Shown one piece after another: positions 51,058 through 56,734 of a stretch of DNA of 64,000 nt. The notes below the pieces were generated by a model. The model did no database searches and was not told where the DNA came from. It worked only from the letters and a program-made list of their open reading frames with translations. Made by a program: the position numbers and the translations under genes. This DNA comes from Desulfolithobacter dissulfuricans (GTDB lineage Bacteria > Desulfobacterota > Desulfobulbia > Desulfobulbales > Desulfobulbaceae). Numbering within the stretch: position 1 is the stretch's first letter; each line of letters starts with the position of its first letter. Where the stretch lies: contig NZ_AP024233.1 in the NCBI RefSeq assembly GCF_025998535.1, forward strand, positions 2,116,001 to 2,180,000, written 5' to 3'.

Positions 51058-51174
51058 TCCCCGGAACTTCCTAAAAGCCGGCTTGACACCACTACACTGT
51101 CGTGCTATAAAATGTTTGATTTTATGAATCACCATTCAGCAAAAAATGTGATACATACCAAGAGGAGGAGAAGT

Positions 51175-51579
51175 ATGAAAAAAACAATCGTTTATGCAGT
51201 GGCTGCAGCCTTTGTGTTCAGTGTAGCCCTGAGTGGCCTGTCCATGGCCCAGGACAAGGGTCCGGCCGAGATGACCCTGAAATCCACCATTGATGGAGCC
51301 AAGAAGCCCAAACCGGCCCATTTCCCCCATGCCGAGCATCAGGAACGACTGAAATGCGGTGAGTGCCACCACACCAAGGGTGCGGACGGCAAGCAGGTTC
51401 CCTACTCCGAGGGTATGAAGATCGAGAAATGTGAGAGTTGTCACAACAAGGGTGCCGGAATGCCCAAGGGTCTGCAGACCTTCAAGGCTGTTGGCCATAA
51501 GAACTGCAAAGGCTGCCATAAAGAAACCGGCAAGAAAGAGCTGACCAAGTGCTCCACCTGTCATCCGAAGAAGAAATAA
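51175..51579 (+). CDS. Small tetraheme c3-type cytochrome
   Basis: 134 residues from ATG 51175, with GAGGAGGAG before it; an in-frame start 63 bases upstream has no signal peptide and is rejected. Signal peptide MKKTIVYAVAAAFVFSVALS, cleaved near SMAQ. Four heme sites: CGECHH, CESCH, CKGCH, CSTCH. Tetraheme cytochromes of this class III type are the periplasmic electron carriers of sulfate and sulfur reducers, docking with hydrogenases and NrfD complexes. The first site has two His in a row, as is normal in c3. It directly follows ccsA and faces the group II intron. Confidence 0.92.
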   Translation: MKKTIVYAVAAAFVFSVALSGLSMAQDKGPAEMTLKSTIDGAKKPKPAHFPHAEHQERLKCGECHHTKGADGKQVPYSEGMKIEKCESCHNKGAGMPKGLQTFKAVGHKNCKGCHKETGKKELTKCSTCHPKKK

Positions 51580-51698: not shown

Positions 51699-52988
51699 TC
51701 ATATTGAAACAGAGATTCCAGTAGATACAGCACCAAGATCAAAGAGACCCAAGCCCCGGTGTAAATATCCGTTGGGCAGGGCATAATGGCTCAAAGGACT
51801 TGCCGCATTGGCCCAGGAGTTCATTTTGATCGCATCAAACTTCCCCCTGTATCCAAGCTGCCTCAGCCTGCGGTGAAGCCGATTGGGCTTCTTCCACAAT
51901 TTCAGCTGGATGGCTCGCAGTCTTCTCCGAATCCATCTCATCAGCCTTGAAAATTCTCCTGTGCAGTTCGCTATCCGGAAGTAGTTGGCAAATCCCCTCA
52001 AGAGCGGATTGAGATCTGCAATCACTTTCTCAAGATTCACCGGGGAATTACGCCGGGTCATTGCCTTGACCTTTGCCTTGAAAGACTTAATCTTGCCTCG
52101 CTGGATTTGCGTATACTGAGAGCATACGGATACTCCCAGAAAGTTTACGCCCCGACTGCTGTGGCAGATATGGGTCTTTTCACGGTTGACAGTCAGCAGC
52201 AATTCTCCTTCAAGATAGTGCCGTGCCTGCTCAAGAGCATTCTCGGCCGCTTTCTTTGATTGGCACAGAATCAGGATATCGTCCGCATAGCGGACTATTC
52301 GGTGGCCACGATTCTTCATGAATTGATCAAAAGAATCGAGATACACATTGGCTATCAGAGGGCTGATCACGCCGCCCTGTGGACTGCCGATCTCGCTAGC
52401 CGTAAATCCCGAATCCGTCATTACACCGCTCTTCAGAAACTTCTCCAGGAGACCGAGGATACTCCCGTCCCTGATCCGGCGACGAAAGGCGCTGAGGATG
52501 AGATCATGGTCCAAGGTGTCAAAGCATTTGGACAGATCCATATCAACTACCCACTTTCGATCGTAGTCACGGATAAACATCGTCGCCTTGGATATCGCCT
52601 GATGACAACTGCGGCCTGGGCGATAGCCATAGCTCGACGGGTGGAAATCCCGATCGAATATCGGCAGGAGAATGTCGAGCAGTGCCTGCTGCACTACACG
52701 GTCACGGACTGCTGGAATACCGAGCAACCGAACTCCTCCGGTTGGCTTGGGTATCTCTACCCGGCGCACGGCCAGTGGCTGGTAACTCTTTTCCCACAGT
52801 TCCTTCAGGAGACAGTCGATGTTGGCTTCGGCTGATGCGGCAAAGTCCTTGATGGACTGGCCGTCTATTCCGGCAGCTCCCTTCGCAGACCTCACCTTCC
52901 CAAACGCCTTGTGCAGAGCGTCCCTGCTCAGCATCCGGTCATACAGACTGTACCAAACGTCAACCATGCTCCTGTCCTGCGTCCCCAT
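51699..52988 (-). CDS. ltrA: Group II intron reverse transcriptase/maturase
   Basis: 429 residues from ATG 52988; a TTG 39 bases upstream and an ATG 21 bases downstream are alternatives. Reverse transcriptase motifs: FHPSSYGYRPGRSCHQAISK, VVDMDLSKCFDTLDHDLIL (first Asp pair), SPQGGVISPLIANVYLDSFD and the active site RYADDILI. The thumb/maturase (X) domain follows (NPLLRGFANYFRIANC, then WIRRRLRAIQLKLWKKPN). It ends without the zinc-finger/HNH endonuclease domain. It is needed for splicing of the host intron and for retrohoming. All motifs are intact, so it may still be active. Confidence 0.93.
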   Translation of the reverse strand: MGTQDRSMVDVWYSLYDRMLSRDALHKAFGKVRSAKGAAGIDGQSIKDFAASAEANIDCLLKELWEKSYQPLAVRRVEIPKPTGGVRLLGIPAVRDRVVQQALLDILLPIFDRDFHPSSYGYRPGRSCHQAISKATMFIRDYDRKWVVDMDLSKCFDTLDHDLILSAFRRRIRDGSILGLLEKFLKSGVMTDSGFTASEIGSPQGGVISPLIANVYLDSFDQFMKNRGHRIVRYADDILILCQSKKAAENALEQARHYLEGELLLTVNREKTHICHSSRGVNFLGVSVCSQYTQIQRGKIKSFKAKVKAMTRRNSPVNLEKVIADLNPLLRGFANYFRIANCTGEFSRLMRWIRRRLRAIQLKLWKKPNRLHRRLRQLGYRGKFDAIKMNSWANAASPLSHYALPNGYLHRGLGLFDLGAVSTGISVSI

Positions 52989-53696
52989 CCCTCCACTTCT
53001 GCCTGGAATCCCCGGGTCTTCACCCAAATGAGAGCGCCTTCTATCCCAATGGGCAATGTACGCTCAACTGTTCAGGTTACTCCGATGAACGGCCAAAATC
53101 AGCAGACGGCCTCTCACAGCATACCGCCGAAAATGTGCCCCGCCCCGTCGGGCAGCTTGTGTTCTGACTCCAGACCTCCATGATCTTCAGGGAACCTTCA
53201 AATAAACTTCATCCCTTCGCAACTGATACCGCTTTTGGCAAATACCAGCCCCTGTCAAACAACGCTGACAGGTCATCCCGGTTTTATCCTCCACGCTGTT
53301 ACCAGGCTTCTCCGGCCGGGATTTCATCACTACTACGGAATCATCTGCCACCTCCCACCGCTTCGGTAGGCCTTGGATCTCTCCTTGAACCTTCCTTAAC
53401 TCTCGTACTGCAAGTACGCTAGGAGGCTTCCCCGGTTAAGGCGAACTCCCGGTGAGCAATCCCATCCTCAATCACGCCAAAGGTCTGACCAGGTATCGGG
53501 CTTCACGCTATTGTGCACGCTTACCCACCTATGACGCCGAATCAGGTTCACTTACGCTATGTACCGCTCACTTCCTATCGCTTCCTTCAGACCCTGCCGT
53601 TGCCAGCAACGCCCTTGCGATTCGGATTGTCTTCCCCTGGTCGGGGTGACGCCTGCGTTCCGCAGGCTGGGTTTGCCCGCCATGCCGGGCAAACAC

Positions 53697-53924: not shown

Positions 53925-56003
53925 CTATCCCTCAACATGCATCTTGGAGATATCGCCCACCTGCAGGACAAGCTGGCCCAGGGCGGTGAGCAGGTTGAGC
54001 CGATTCTGCCGCACGGCCGGATCCTCGGCCATGACCATGACCTGGTCGAAGAACCGGTCCACCGGCTCCTTCATCCGCAGCATGGCCCGCAGCGAGGCCT
54101 TGTATTCTCTTTTCTCAAGCAGGGGCCCCACAGCCTCCTGAACTTCCTGCAAGACCTGGTAGAGCTCCTTTTCCGCCTCCTCGACAAACATGTCCGGATC
54201 CACGGCTGTCTCGGTATTGTCCTTGATGATGTTTCTGATCCGCTTGAACGATCCGGCAAGAACAGTGAACTCTTCCTGGCTGCGTATCCCATCCAGAGCC
54301 CGGATCCGGGCCAGACAGTCAACCACATCATCAAATCCGACCGAAGTCGCCGCTTCCACCACCTCGGACCGTGTACCCGAGGCCACCAGGTCGTTGGTAA
54401 AGCGCAGGCGGATAAAGCGGAGTACCTCGTCAACGATCTTTTCATCCGGCTCATGCCCGAGCAGCTCTCCGTATCCCTTAAGAGCATAACCGACAATGGC
54501 CTTCAGGGAGAGGGAAATATTGAGTCCTGAGATGATATGCAACAACCCAAGAGCCTGGCGTCTGAGACCAAAAGGATCCGTGTTGCCAGTGGGTTTTTCA
54601 CCGATGGCAAAGCAGCCGGTCAGGGTATCGATCCGGTCGGCAATACCGACAATGGCGCCCAGCAGGGTGGTCGGAAGCTCGCCACCGGCCCGGAGCGGCA
54701 GATAATGTTCATGGATGGCCAGCGCCACTTCCGGTTTCTCGCCATCCAGCAGGGCGTATTCCCGCCCCATGACCCCCTGGAGCGATGGGAACTCGCCCAC
54801 CATCTCGGTCAACAGATCGGCCTTGCACAGCCAGGCTGCCCGGACCGCGTCCTCCTCCAGGTCCGGGGCCAGTTCCCGGGCCAGCATGCCGGCCAGTCGG
54901 GCAATACGGGCCGATTTTTCCTTCATGCTGCCGAGTTTCTGCTGAAAGATGATACCTTCCAGAGCATCGATCCTCCTGGCCAGCGGAGTTTTCTTGTCTT
55001 CGTTGAAAAAGAAAAGTCCGTCTTCCAGACGGGCCCGCAGGACCCGTTCATGGCCGGCGACCGCCAGATCCCTATCCTCGATACGGGTATTGTTCACTGC
55101 AACAAAGAGCGGCATCAGGCAGCCGTTCCTGTCCTGGACTGGAAAATACTTCTGGTGCTCCCGCATGGAGGTGATCAGGGCCTCGTCGGGTAATTCGAGA
55201 AATTTTTCGTCAAAGCTCCCGCATACCCCCCAGGGAATCTCCACCAGATTGGTGACCGTGTCCACCAACCCCTCGTGGAGGACCGGTTCGCCCTCGGACG
55301 TGCGACCGGCCACGGCCTGTTTGACCTCGCTGATCACCTGGCGCCGCCTCTTTTGCGGATCCACCAGCACAGAGTGTTCCTGGAGCCTTTCCTGATACTG
55401 CGCAAAGCCGGTGACCACAAAACTCTCCGGAGCCATGAACCGGTGTCCCCGGGTCGTGTTGCCACTCACCGTATCCTCCACTTCAAACTCCACCACCTGG
55501 CCATCATACAGGGCCAGGAGCCACTGGATGGGCCGGGCAAAGGCCAGCGAGGTATTGGCCCAGCGCATGGACTTGGGAAAGACCATACTGCGGATCAATC
55601 CTTCCAGGATCTCCGGCAGAAGCTCGATGGTCTCCCGCCCCTGAACATGTTCAACAGCCATCAGATACGGCCCCTTGGGAGTCTCCACCACCTGGAGATC
55701 CTCCACCGCAACCCCGCGGGAACGGGCAAATCCCATGGCTGCCTTTGTGGGATTACCGTCCGCATCAAAACCGGCCTTTTTCGAGGGCCCGATATGTTCC
55801 ACCCTTCTGTCCGGCTGCCTGGACTGGAGATCTTCCACGCAGAGGGTCAGCCGCCTCGGGGTTCCCACCGTATGAATGGGGCCGGATTCAAGCCCGAGCT
55901 CGGAAAACCTGGCCGCACAGGCCTGCTCCATAAATGCCAGAGCCGGCTGGATATAGCCGGCAGGGATCTCTTCGGTACCTATTTCAAACAGCAGTTCATT
56001 CAT
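53925..56003 (-). CDS. glyS: Glycyl-tRNA synthetase beta subunit
   Basis: 692 residues, usual length. Family signature MNELLFEIGTEEIPAGYIQP at the start; VFPKSMRWANTSLAFARPIQ, VNNTRIEDRDLAVAGHERVL, GREYALLDGEKPEVALAIHE and an HD-like region further on; the C-terminal tRNA-binding domain ends VGDISKMHVEG. It works with GlyQ, which is not in the window, in an alpha2-beta2 enzyme. Its start overlaps the end of the FolE2-like gene as ATGA, so coupled translation is likely. Confidence 0.95.
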   Translation of the reverse strand: MNELLFEIGTEEIPAGYIQPALAFMEQACAARFSELGLESGPIHTVGTPRRLTLCVEDLQSRQPDRRVEHIGPSKKAGFDADGNPTKAAMGFARSRGVAVEDLQVVETPKGPYLMAVEHVQGRETIELLPEILEGLIRSMVFPKSMRWANTSLAFARPIQWLLALYDGQVVEFEVEDTVSGNTTRGHRFMAPESFVVTGFAQYQERLQEHSVLVDPQKRRRQVISEVKQAVAGRTSEGEPVLHEGLVDTVTNLVEIPWGVCGSFDEKFLELPDEALITSMREHQKYFPVQDRNGCLMPLFVAVNNTRIEDRDLAVAGHERVLRARLEDGLFFFNEDKKTPLARRIDALEGIIFQQKLGSMKEKSARIARLAGMLARELAPDLEEDAVRAAWLCKADLLTEMVGEFPSLQGVMGREYALLDGEKPEVALAIHEHYLPLRAGGELPTTLLGAIVGIADRIDTLTGCFAIGEKPTGNTDPFGLRRQALGLLHIISGLNISLSLKAIVGYALKGYGELLGHEPDEKIVDEVLRFIRLRFTNDLVASGTRSEVVEAATSVGFDDVVDCLARIRALDGIRSQEEFTVLAGSFKRIRNIIKDNTETAVDPDMFVEEAEKELYQVLQEVQEAVGPLLEKREYKASLRAMLRMKEPVDRFFDQVMVMAEDPAVRQNRLNLLTALGQLVLQVGDISKMHVEG

Positions 56004-56734
56004 TGATTTTTTCTTGTTGAGGATGTGTGGTTAGATGAGTTGACACTGGCAAAGGTCGCAAACCCGCTGGCAAAATTTTCCACCACCACCGAAAACCAGC
56101 GGATGGCCGGCTGATCGGCAAGTATTTCACCCAGCTGGCGGCAGACCGTCTCCACCGAGTCGGGCAGGTCACTTCTGCCGGCCAGTCCCTGTTCCACCAG
56201 GCTGATCAGATCTTCGATCCAGATAAACTCCCGGAACCGGACCGCAACCCTGGCCGTTCCCCAGCGGCCCATGGACCGGGGCAATCCGCCCTGGTCAAGG
56301 CTTGAACGGGGAACCGTGATCGGGACATCGATTTCCAGCACCAGGTCGTCGCTCTCGGCCAGGGAACCGTGCATGCGGCACTCATAACGCTCGGTGCCGA
56401 TGGAGTCGACCGAGGAGTCCCGCTGGAGAAAATAGGGAAACTCTATCTCCATGTGCGCGGCTTCCGCATCAAGACGGCCCTTGGTCTCCTCGAGAATATG
56501 ATGGAAGCTCTCCAGATTTATCCGGCCATGAAACCGATTCAAGATCTCCACGAAACGGCTCATGTGGGTGCCCTTAAACCGGTGCGGCAGGTTGACGTAC
56601 ATGTTGACCGTGGCCACAGTCTGCTGCAGCCGATGCTCCTTGTCGAGCACAGTTACAGGATAGGAAATGGTTTTGACGCCGACCTTGCGGATGTTGATAC
56701 GCCGGTCATCGCGGAGGTTCTGGATATCCTTCAT
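56000..56734 (-). CDS. FolE2-like protein without the catalytic cysteine motif
   Basis: 244 residues. The first 135 residues match GTP cyclohydrolase IB (FolE2): MKDIQNLRDDRRINIRKVGV, VATVNMYVNLPHRFKGTHMS and the AHMEIEFPYFLQRDSSVDS strand. FREFIWIEDLISLVEQGL and WFSVVVENFASG also match. However, where FolE2 has its CPCSKxIS...GAHNQR block with the metal/catalytic Cys, this protein has VPRSSLDQGGLPRSMGRWGT. The later acidic/His region is also shortened. So the T-fold is kept but the usual active site is missing. It may have another role. It overlaps glyS by 4 bases. Confidence 0.8.
   Translation of the reverse strand: MKDIQNLRDDRRINIRKVGVKTISYPVTVLDKEHRLQQTVATVNMYVNLPHRFKGTHMSRFVEILNRFHGRINLESFHHILEETKGRLDAEAAHMEIEFPYFLQRDSSVDSIGTERYECRMHGSLAESDDLVLEIDVPITVPRSSLDQGGLPRSMGRWGTARVAVRFREFIWIEDLISLVEQGLAGRSDLPDSVETVCRQLGEILADQPAIRWFSVVVENFASGFATFASVNSSNHTSSTRKNQ

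Follow-up and report, generated by a model that had tools for sequence, protein, structure and literature searches.

The window analysed here, a stretch of 64,000 nucleotides, carries on its minus strand a gene for a Cys-less protein similar to GTP cyclohydrolase IB (FolE2), from here on A, followed on the same strand by glyS (Table 1). The coupling of the two genes, pointed out in the preliminary description, is real, the stop codon of A and the start codon of glyS overlapping in an ATGA. In the window genome A adjoins glyS and not folate genes. On the other side of glyS, between this gene and an ORF with four CxxCH motifs (51112-51579), lies a reverse transcriptase ORF (51699-53027, minus strand) with a YADD motif, by sight of the group II intron type.

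Table 1. Position of A, its sequence motifs and the adjoining glyS gene in the window.
Feature	Position	Strand	Basis
glyS, glycyl-tRNA synthetase beta subunit, 692 aa	53925..56003	(-)	ORF; named by sight and in the preliminary description
ATGA stop/start overlap of A with glyS	56000..56003	(-)	Sequence
A copy, Cys-less FolE2-like protein, 244 aa	56000..56734	(-)	Open ORF; PF02649; FolE2 fold, Z 21.9
DxQ..DxR N-terminal segment, residues 3-11	56702..56728	(-)	Kept in A, missing in B
KGTHMSRF, residues 54-61	56552..56575	(-)	Retained by A and lost by B
Residues 141-158, a degenerate block where CPCSK..GAHNQR would be, with the A-specific LPRSxGxWG	56261..56314	(-)	
C-terminal part, shortened, without LKR.DEK..TE, P.F and SIHxHxA	56045..56179	(-)	Column-by-column alignment

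In Pfam, A matches PF02649 with 143.9 bits (cut-off 25), over profile positions 1-144 of 260 only, and against the FolE2 equivalog of NCBIfam its 121.3 bits fall far short of the cut-off of 215. As had been claimed, its N-terminal half is FolE2-like, aligning closely with three solved FolE2 chains, KGTHMSRF included, and the FIWIEDL block is present; the place of CPCSK..GAHNQR is taken by VPRSSLDQGGLPRSMGRWG, and the LKR.DEK..TE segment and the SIHxHxA end are missing, in agreement with the reported shortening of the late acidic/His part. The AlphaFold model of A (pLDDT 83.6) had FolE2 as its best structural match (Z 21.9, rmsd 3.3 to 2r5r) and uricase as the next one (Z 15.6). It is well supported by the sequence that A by itself would be no GTP cyclohydrolase. 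The suggestion that it could be a non-enzymatic T-fold protein fits A taken alone, but the protein looks like one half of the same enzyme and not like a stray T-fold protein.

An orthologue of A was found in 60 of the 73 genomes of the same family (own genome included), with 49-78% identity in the others, one of them partial. At the level of the class, which we take to be Desulfobulbia because the named A-type relatives include Desulfobulbaceae, Desulfobulbus, Desulfocapsa, Desulfofustis and Candidatus Electrothrix, the set comprised 159 genomes with completeness of at least 90%, and a match below 1e-40 was obtained in 154 of them; the second copy of such genomes (B, described below) scored only roughly 1e-10 to 1e-28 with the A query. 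The remaining five correspond to one fragment, one genome with no match and three genomes of genus g11. These class-wide figures for A and B rest on E-values, and E alone cannot tell A from an ordinary FolE2, because FolE2s from outside the class reach up to 4e-60 with the A query; the sequences of the five matches among the 154 that were weaker than 1e-60 (G019, G112, G146, G185, G189) were read. A, B and one-chain sequences, taken one per genome and type, were inspected for motifs (94, 66 and 34, respectively), covering part of the 159 genomes; two of the A sequences have fewer than 200 residues (L060, with 115, and L229, with 170) and are too short to show the C-terminal end.

KGTHMSRF is present in all 94 A sequences, the window protein among them, as are D3, Q5, D9 and R11 of the DxQ..DxR segment. 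CPC is found in none of the 94 (L060 ends before the block), and two of them have a Cys aligned to the first Cys of this motif, with the rest of it absent. Column by column, the canonical residues of the CPCS, GAHNQR, DEK..TE and SIHxH blocks appear in 0-23% of the A sequences; none of these has the HNQR Asn, Gln or Arg, and the His residues late in the protein (SIHxH) are retained in 0-1%. Median dN/dS values for A, calculated with whole-gene pairs of dS 0.05 to 2 in four hand-chosen genera, were 0.047, 0.065 and 0.111 in three of them (11, 21 and 17 pairs) and 0.066 in the fourth (a single pair); these ratios are rough, since dS was often above 1. The tightest constraint fell on the first 64 residues in three genera (0.016-0.044), and in the genus with a single pair this segment tied with the degenerate block, both at 0.016. 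Most listed orthologues lack inner stops; a few rows have one or two, many of them where the match passes residue 235. Given that all 94 extracted orthologues keep KGTHMSRF and none of them has CPC, and that median dN/dS is 0.05-0.11, a frameshift, which the preliminary description had considered as a source of the altered block, is unlikely, and the possibility that A is a pseudogene was rejected.

At the place of the former GAHNQR, residues 151-159 of A form a conserved LPRSxGxWG, whose Gly156 and Trp158 are present in 90 of the 94 sequences. In genus g12 (L029-L032, L040, L046) the dead block is about 10 residues shorter in the four sequences aligned, and the other two read alike. The A-specific motif, together with His94 and Cys119, two residues of domain 1 invariant in 59 rows, could be taken as a sign that A has a new site, metal-free or re-invented, for another reaction. 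We regard this as highly improbable, because the block that replaces the catalytic one is variable, down to the shortening in g12, and because the only invariant or nearly invariant acid, His or Cys residues of domain 2 are Glu174 and Glu195, common to ordinary FolE2s. The new substrate initially proposed for A is not supported either, since the conserved N-terminal motif retained by A is precisely the one missing from its catalytic paralogue; this candidate was rejected, with no new conserved catalytic set in the second domain of A.

The association with glyS is widespread: this gene was downstream of A, in the same orientation, in 25 of 30 loci and then in 51 of 54 further loci (some genomes being represented twice). 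Such an arrangement might suggest a role of A tied to translation or to glycyl-tRNA synthetase. However, six of the eight loci without glyS after A belong to genus g12 (the other two are contig ends), where A is maintained and glyS was not found beside it in the stretch of about 1.5 kb that was searched; in G059 (L155) the downstream stretch without it extends to about 3.4 kb. In addition, glyQ is not near A but elsewhere in the window genome, and the constraint on A falls on the FolE2 substrate motif. A function in translation is thus very unlikely. Since g12 has A without an adjacent glyS, the coupling is unlikely to define the function of A; it may set its level without being essential to it.

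Besides A, the window genome has two further PF02649 genes. One of them, B, is located at contig position 2450601, 0.28 Mb away from A and unlinked to it, and has a canonical look, with CPCSK, GAHNQR, DEK..TE, FVED and SIHxH. Its AlphaFold model (pLDDT 90.7) also gave FolE2 as the best match (Z 28.1 to 3d2o), followed by uricase (Z 15.3). CPCS and GAHNQR are present in all 66 B sequences, which have the other catalytic blocks as well, and KG[TI]xMSR in none of them: KGTHMSRF is degenerate in B, mostly with S/T-Cys at the place of Thr-His. A Cys at the His position of this motif is conserved in 61 of the 66 (residue 45 of the B protein of the own genome). The DxQ..DxR segment is gapped in 66 of 66 and D[VILM]Q was absent from all 66 in-frame upstream sequences; in 40 cases the upstream frame hits a stop within 13 codons. 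The other gene (L002, contig position 943611, adjoining a polyphosphate-kinase-like gene named by sight) encodes an MptA-like protein with KGIHMSR, CPCT and THSQR, and matches of this kind, with E values of 1e-20 or better, were found in 38 of the 159 class genomes, own genome included. FolE1 was not found in the window genome and was detected in 1 of the 159 class genomes, one with 8% contamination, which discards FolE1 as the real enzyme and leaves the folate pathway resting on FolE2-type proteins. As to a canonical folE or folE2 in the genome, raised in the preliminary description, there is no FolE1, and B, for all its canonical look, lacks the N-terminal motifs.

The distribution of conserved positions between the two proteins was compared with 34 complete one-chain FolE2s, 28 of them from the phylum outside the class, together with those of Neisseria and Cupriavidus and four of genus g11. 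The 28 were read, from among the matches listed and corresponding to the stronger ones, out of 315 phylum genomes outside the class with a match. All three motif patterns are present in 33 of the 34, the exception being Cupriavidus, with RGTHMSRF. A column was considered invariant when conserved in at least 97% of the one-chain proteins, and kept when conserved in at least 90% of A or of B. Of the 73 invariant columns, both proteins keep 16, A alone 20, B alone 36 and neither of them one, vs about 10.6 shared losses expected; none of the 72 circular shifts, in which the block structure is preserved, gave so low a value at that threshold, and across six pairs of thresholds between 0 and 6 of the 72 or 89 shifts did. 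The columns kept only in A are mostly in the N-terminus and the first T-fold domain, with the exception of Asn238, while those kept only in B start at Lys104 and are mostly in the second domain (numbering of the N. gonorrhoeae row).

This complementarity bears on the possibility that A is a regulatory pseudoenzyme, similar to GFRP in modulating a partner (B or another enzyme), with KGTHMSRF as its binding site for GTP or a pterin, B being active alone despite its changed domain 1. The strong constraint on A would agree with such a role, and dead paralogues that activate their partners are known as prozymes in trypanosomatids, which differ from the present case in being eukaryotes; the prozyme folds are unrelated to the FolE2-type fold. 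In deoxyhypusine synthase and AdoMetDC of these organisms, an impaired enzyme reaches full activity only with the help of its dead paralogue (PMC3663545, PMC5201418); the title of the first of these reports terms the activation of deoxyhypusine synthase allosteric (PMC3663545). A regulatory function, however, leaves unexplained why the motif lost by B should be the very one retained in A, and why the shared losses are so few, and we consider it unlikely.

A and B were found together in 149 of the 159 class genomes, counting fragments at contig ends (A in G071; B in G011 and G165). Six drafts (G080, G082, G161, G163, G173, G182) have A, or a piece of it, without B, one genome (G187) has B without A, and three, all of genus g11 (G052, G055, G056), have neither. 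Each of these three carries one FolE2 with both motifs, and in the smaller of the trees described below the g11 FolE2 (two rows) was placed outside the FolE2 clade of the phylum, as would be expected if a foreign complete enzyme had taken the place of both halves; the three genomes count as one event. With respect to the drafts, A may persist without B, since six of them have A alone, four with an MptA-like paralogue, and A may have another partner there, as this proportion (4/6) compares with 38/159 overall. This, and its occurrence in the window genome, would be the arguments for a general pairing of A with the MptA-like third paralogue instead of B, which is nevertheless extremely unlikely: such a match exists in only 38 genomes vs 154 for A, and the MptA-like copy of the window genome has its own KGIHMSR and CPC.

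In a first, larger tree, built with 35 A and 32 B sequences picked by hand, Cys-less A and CPC-bearing B each formed one clade (100/100 in both cases), the nodes around A being weak. In a second, smaller one, with 13 A and 11 B and seven one-chain rows dropped (five from outside the class and two of g11), A and B fell inside the FolE2 clade of the phylum (100/98). Grouping of A and B as one clade was not rejected (p-AU 0.37), so that one duplication and two sources both fit. Of 56 paired genomes, the 46 in which enough of glyS was available were used to compare the distances within A and B, which correlated beyond what is accounted for by glyS (partial r 0.65, 0/2000 permutations); the partial correlation was 0.28 (1/1000) after removing 9 of the 46 genomes, most of them fast-evolving. 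The glyS control is not clean, since A and B each correlate with glyS given the other (0.21, 3/1000, and 0.36, 0/1000, respectively).

In our opinion these data are best explained if A and B together form a hetero-oligomeric GTP cyclohydrolase IB, the enzyme with which folate synthesis begins, as its two kinds of subunit, which we consider probable with good confidence. The two FolE2 genes of the class would have degenerated in complementary ways. A would give the domain-1 half of each GTP site (DxQ..DxR and KGTHMSRF), its domain 2 being dead, and B the domain-2 half with the metal, Cys, His and Glu residues, its domain 1 being dead. In a T-fold oligomer, each live site would then combine the first domain of an A subunit with the second domain of the B subunit next to it, and the reciprocal sites (domain 2 of A with domain 1 of B) would be dead. 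We infer from this a physical association of A and B in which neither would work alone, A being non-catalytic and B impaired. The LPRSxGxWG of A may perhaps pack against the dead motif of B.

What makes this arrangement preferable is that related T-fold enzymes build their sites between subunits. GTP cyclohydrolase IB is a bimodular homotetramer with an essential Cys in CPCS. An ordinary FolE2 (PF02649; PDB 2r5r, 5k95, 8g6c) shares fold and origin with A and B and has all motifs in one chain, whereas here they are divided over two genes, KGTHMSRF in A and all catalytic blocks in B. That its site would lie between subunits is taken by analogy from uricase and QueF. In the uricase tetramer the ligand sits between two protomers, with Thr57* coming from the second one (PMC7792999); uricase has the same overall fold class as A (Z about 15 for the A model), but is homomeric and has a different chemistry. 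In QueF, a T-fold nitrile reductase, the sites of the unimodular form are located where subunits meet, and the bimodular form has the QueF motif in one module and the Cys/Glu in the other, the two coming together in one site (PMC5372742). Bimodular QueF resembles A and B in that, after duplication of T-fold modules, the halves of the site are in separate modules (PMC5372742), the difference being that its modules are fused in one chain and A and B are unlinked genes with two T-fold domains each.

Extended to the whole class, the relatives of cable bacteria included, it seems fairly likely that an obligate two-gene GTP cyclohydrolase IB is required for de novo folate synthesis, with every active site shared by a Cys-less and a KGTHMSRF-less subunit, and that one genus reverted to one gene by means of a foreign FolE2, losing both halves together. 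No two-gene FolE2 came up in the literature searched, with most subscription papers outside it. If this reading is correct, a housekeeping enzyme would have passed from homomer to heteromer through complementary loss of active-site halves, a change fixed across a class of sulfur-cycling bacteria, and this would be a clean and testable case of the origin of an obligate heteromer. B copies annotated as complete enzymes may then need a partner, and a plain GTP cyclohydrolase annotation should not be used for the Cys-less "FolE2" of the class genomes.

Some minor observations were made in these searches. Among 80 named loci, 15 were A-type, 64 had all four motifs and one lacked the last, a scan blind to B-type proteins because it looked for KGTHMSRF and MYVNLPHxF. 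Outside the class, four genomes gave two matches with the A query: two full-span copies are present in G557, one full copy together with a fragment in G332, and a single copy split in two in G455 and G531. In G455, a one-contig genome, the adjacent pieces (L340 and L344) cover profile positions 1-100 and 82-260, with one TAG inside, and could be due to misassembly, a frameshift or breakage of the gene. Finally, G066 has two A-type matches (C83 and C64, with 69% and 64% identity), from either a mixed bin or a duplication.
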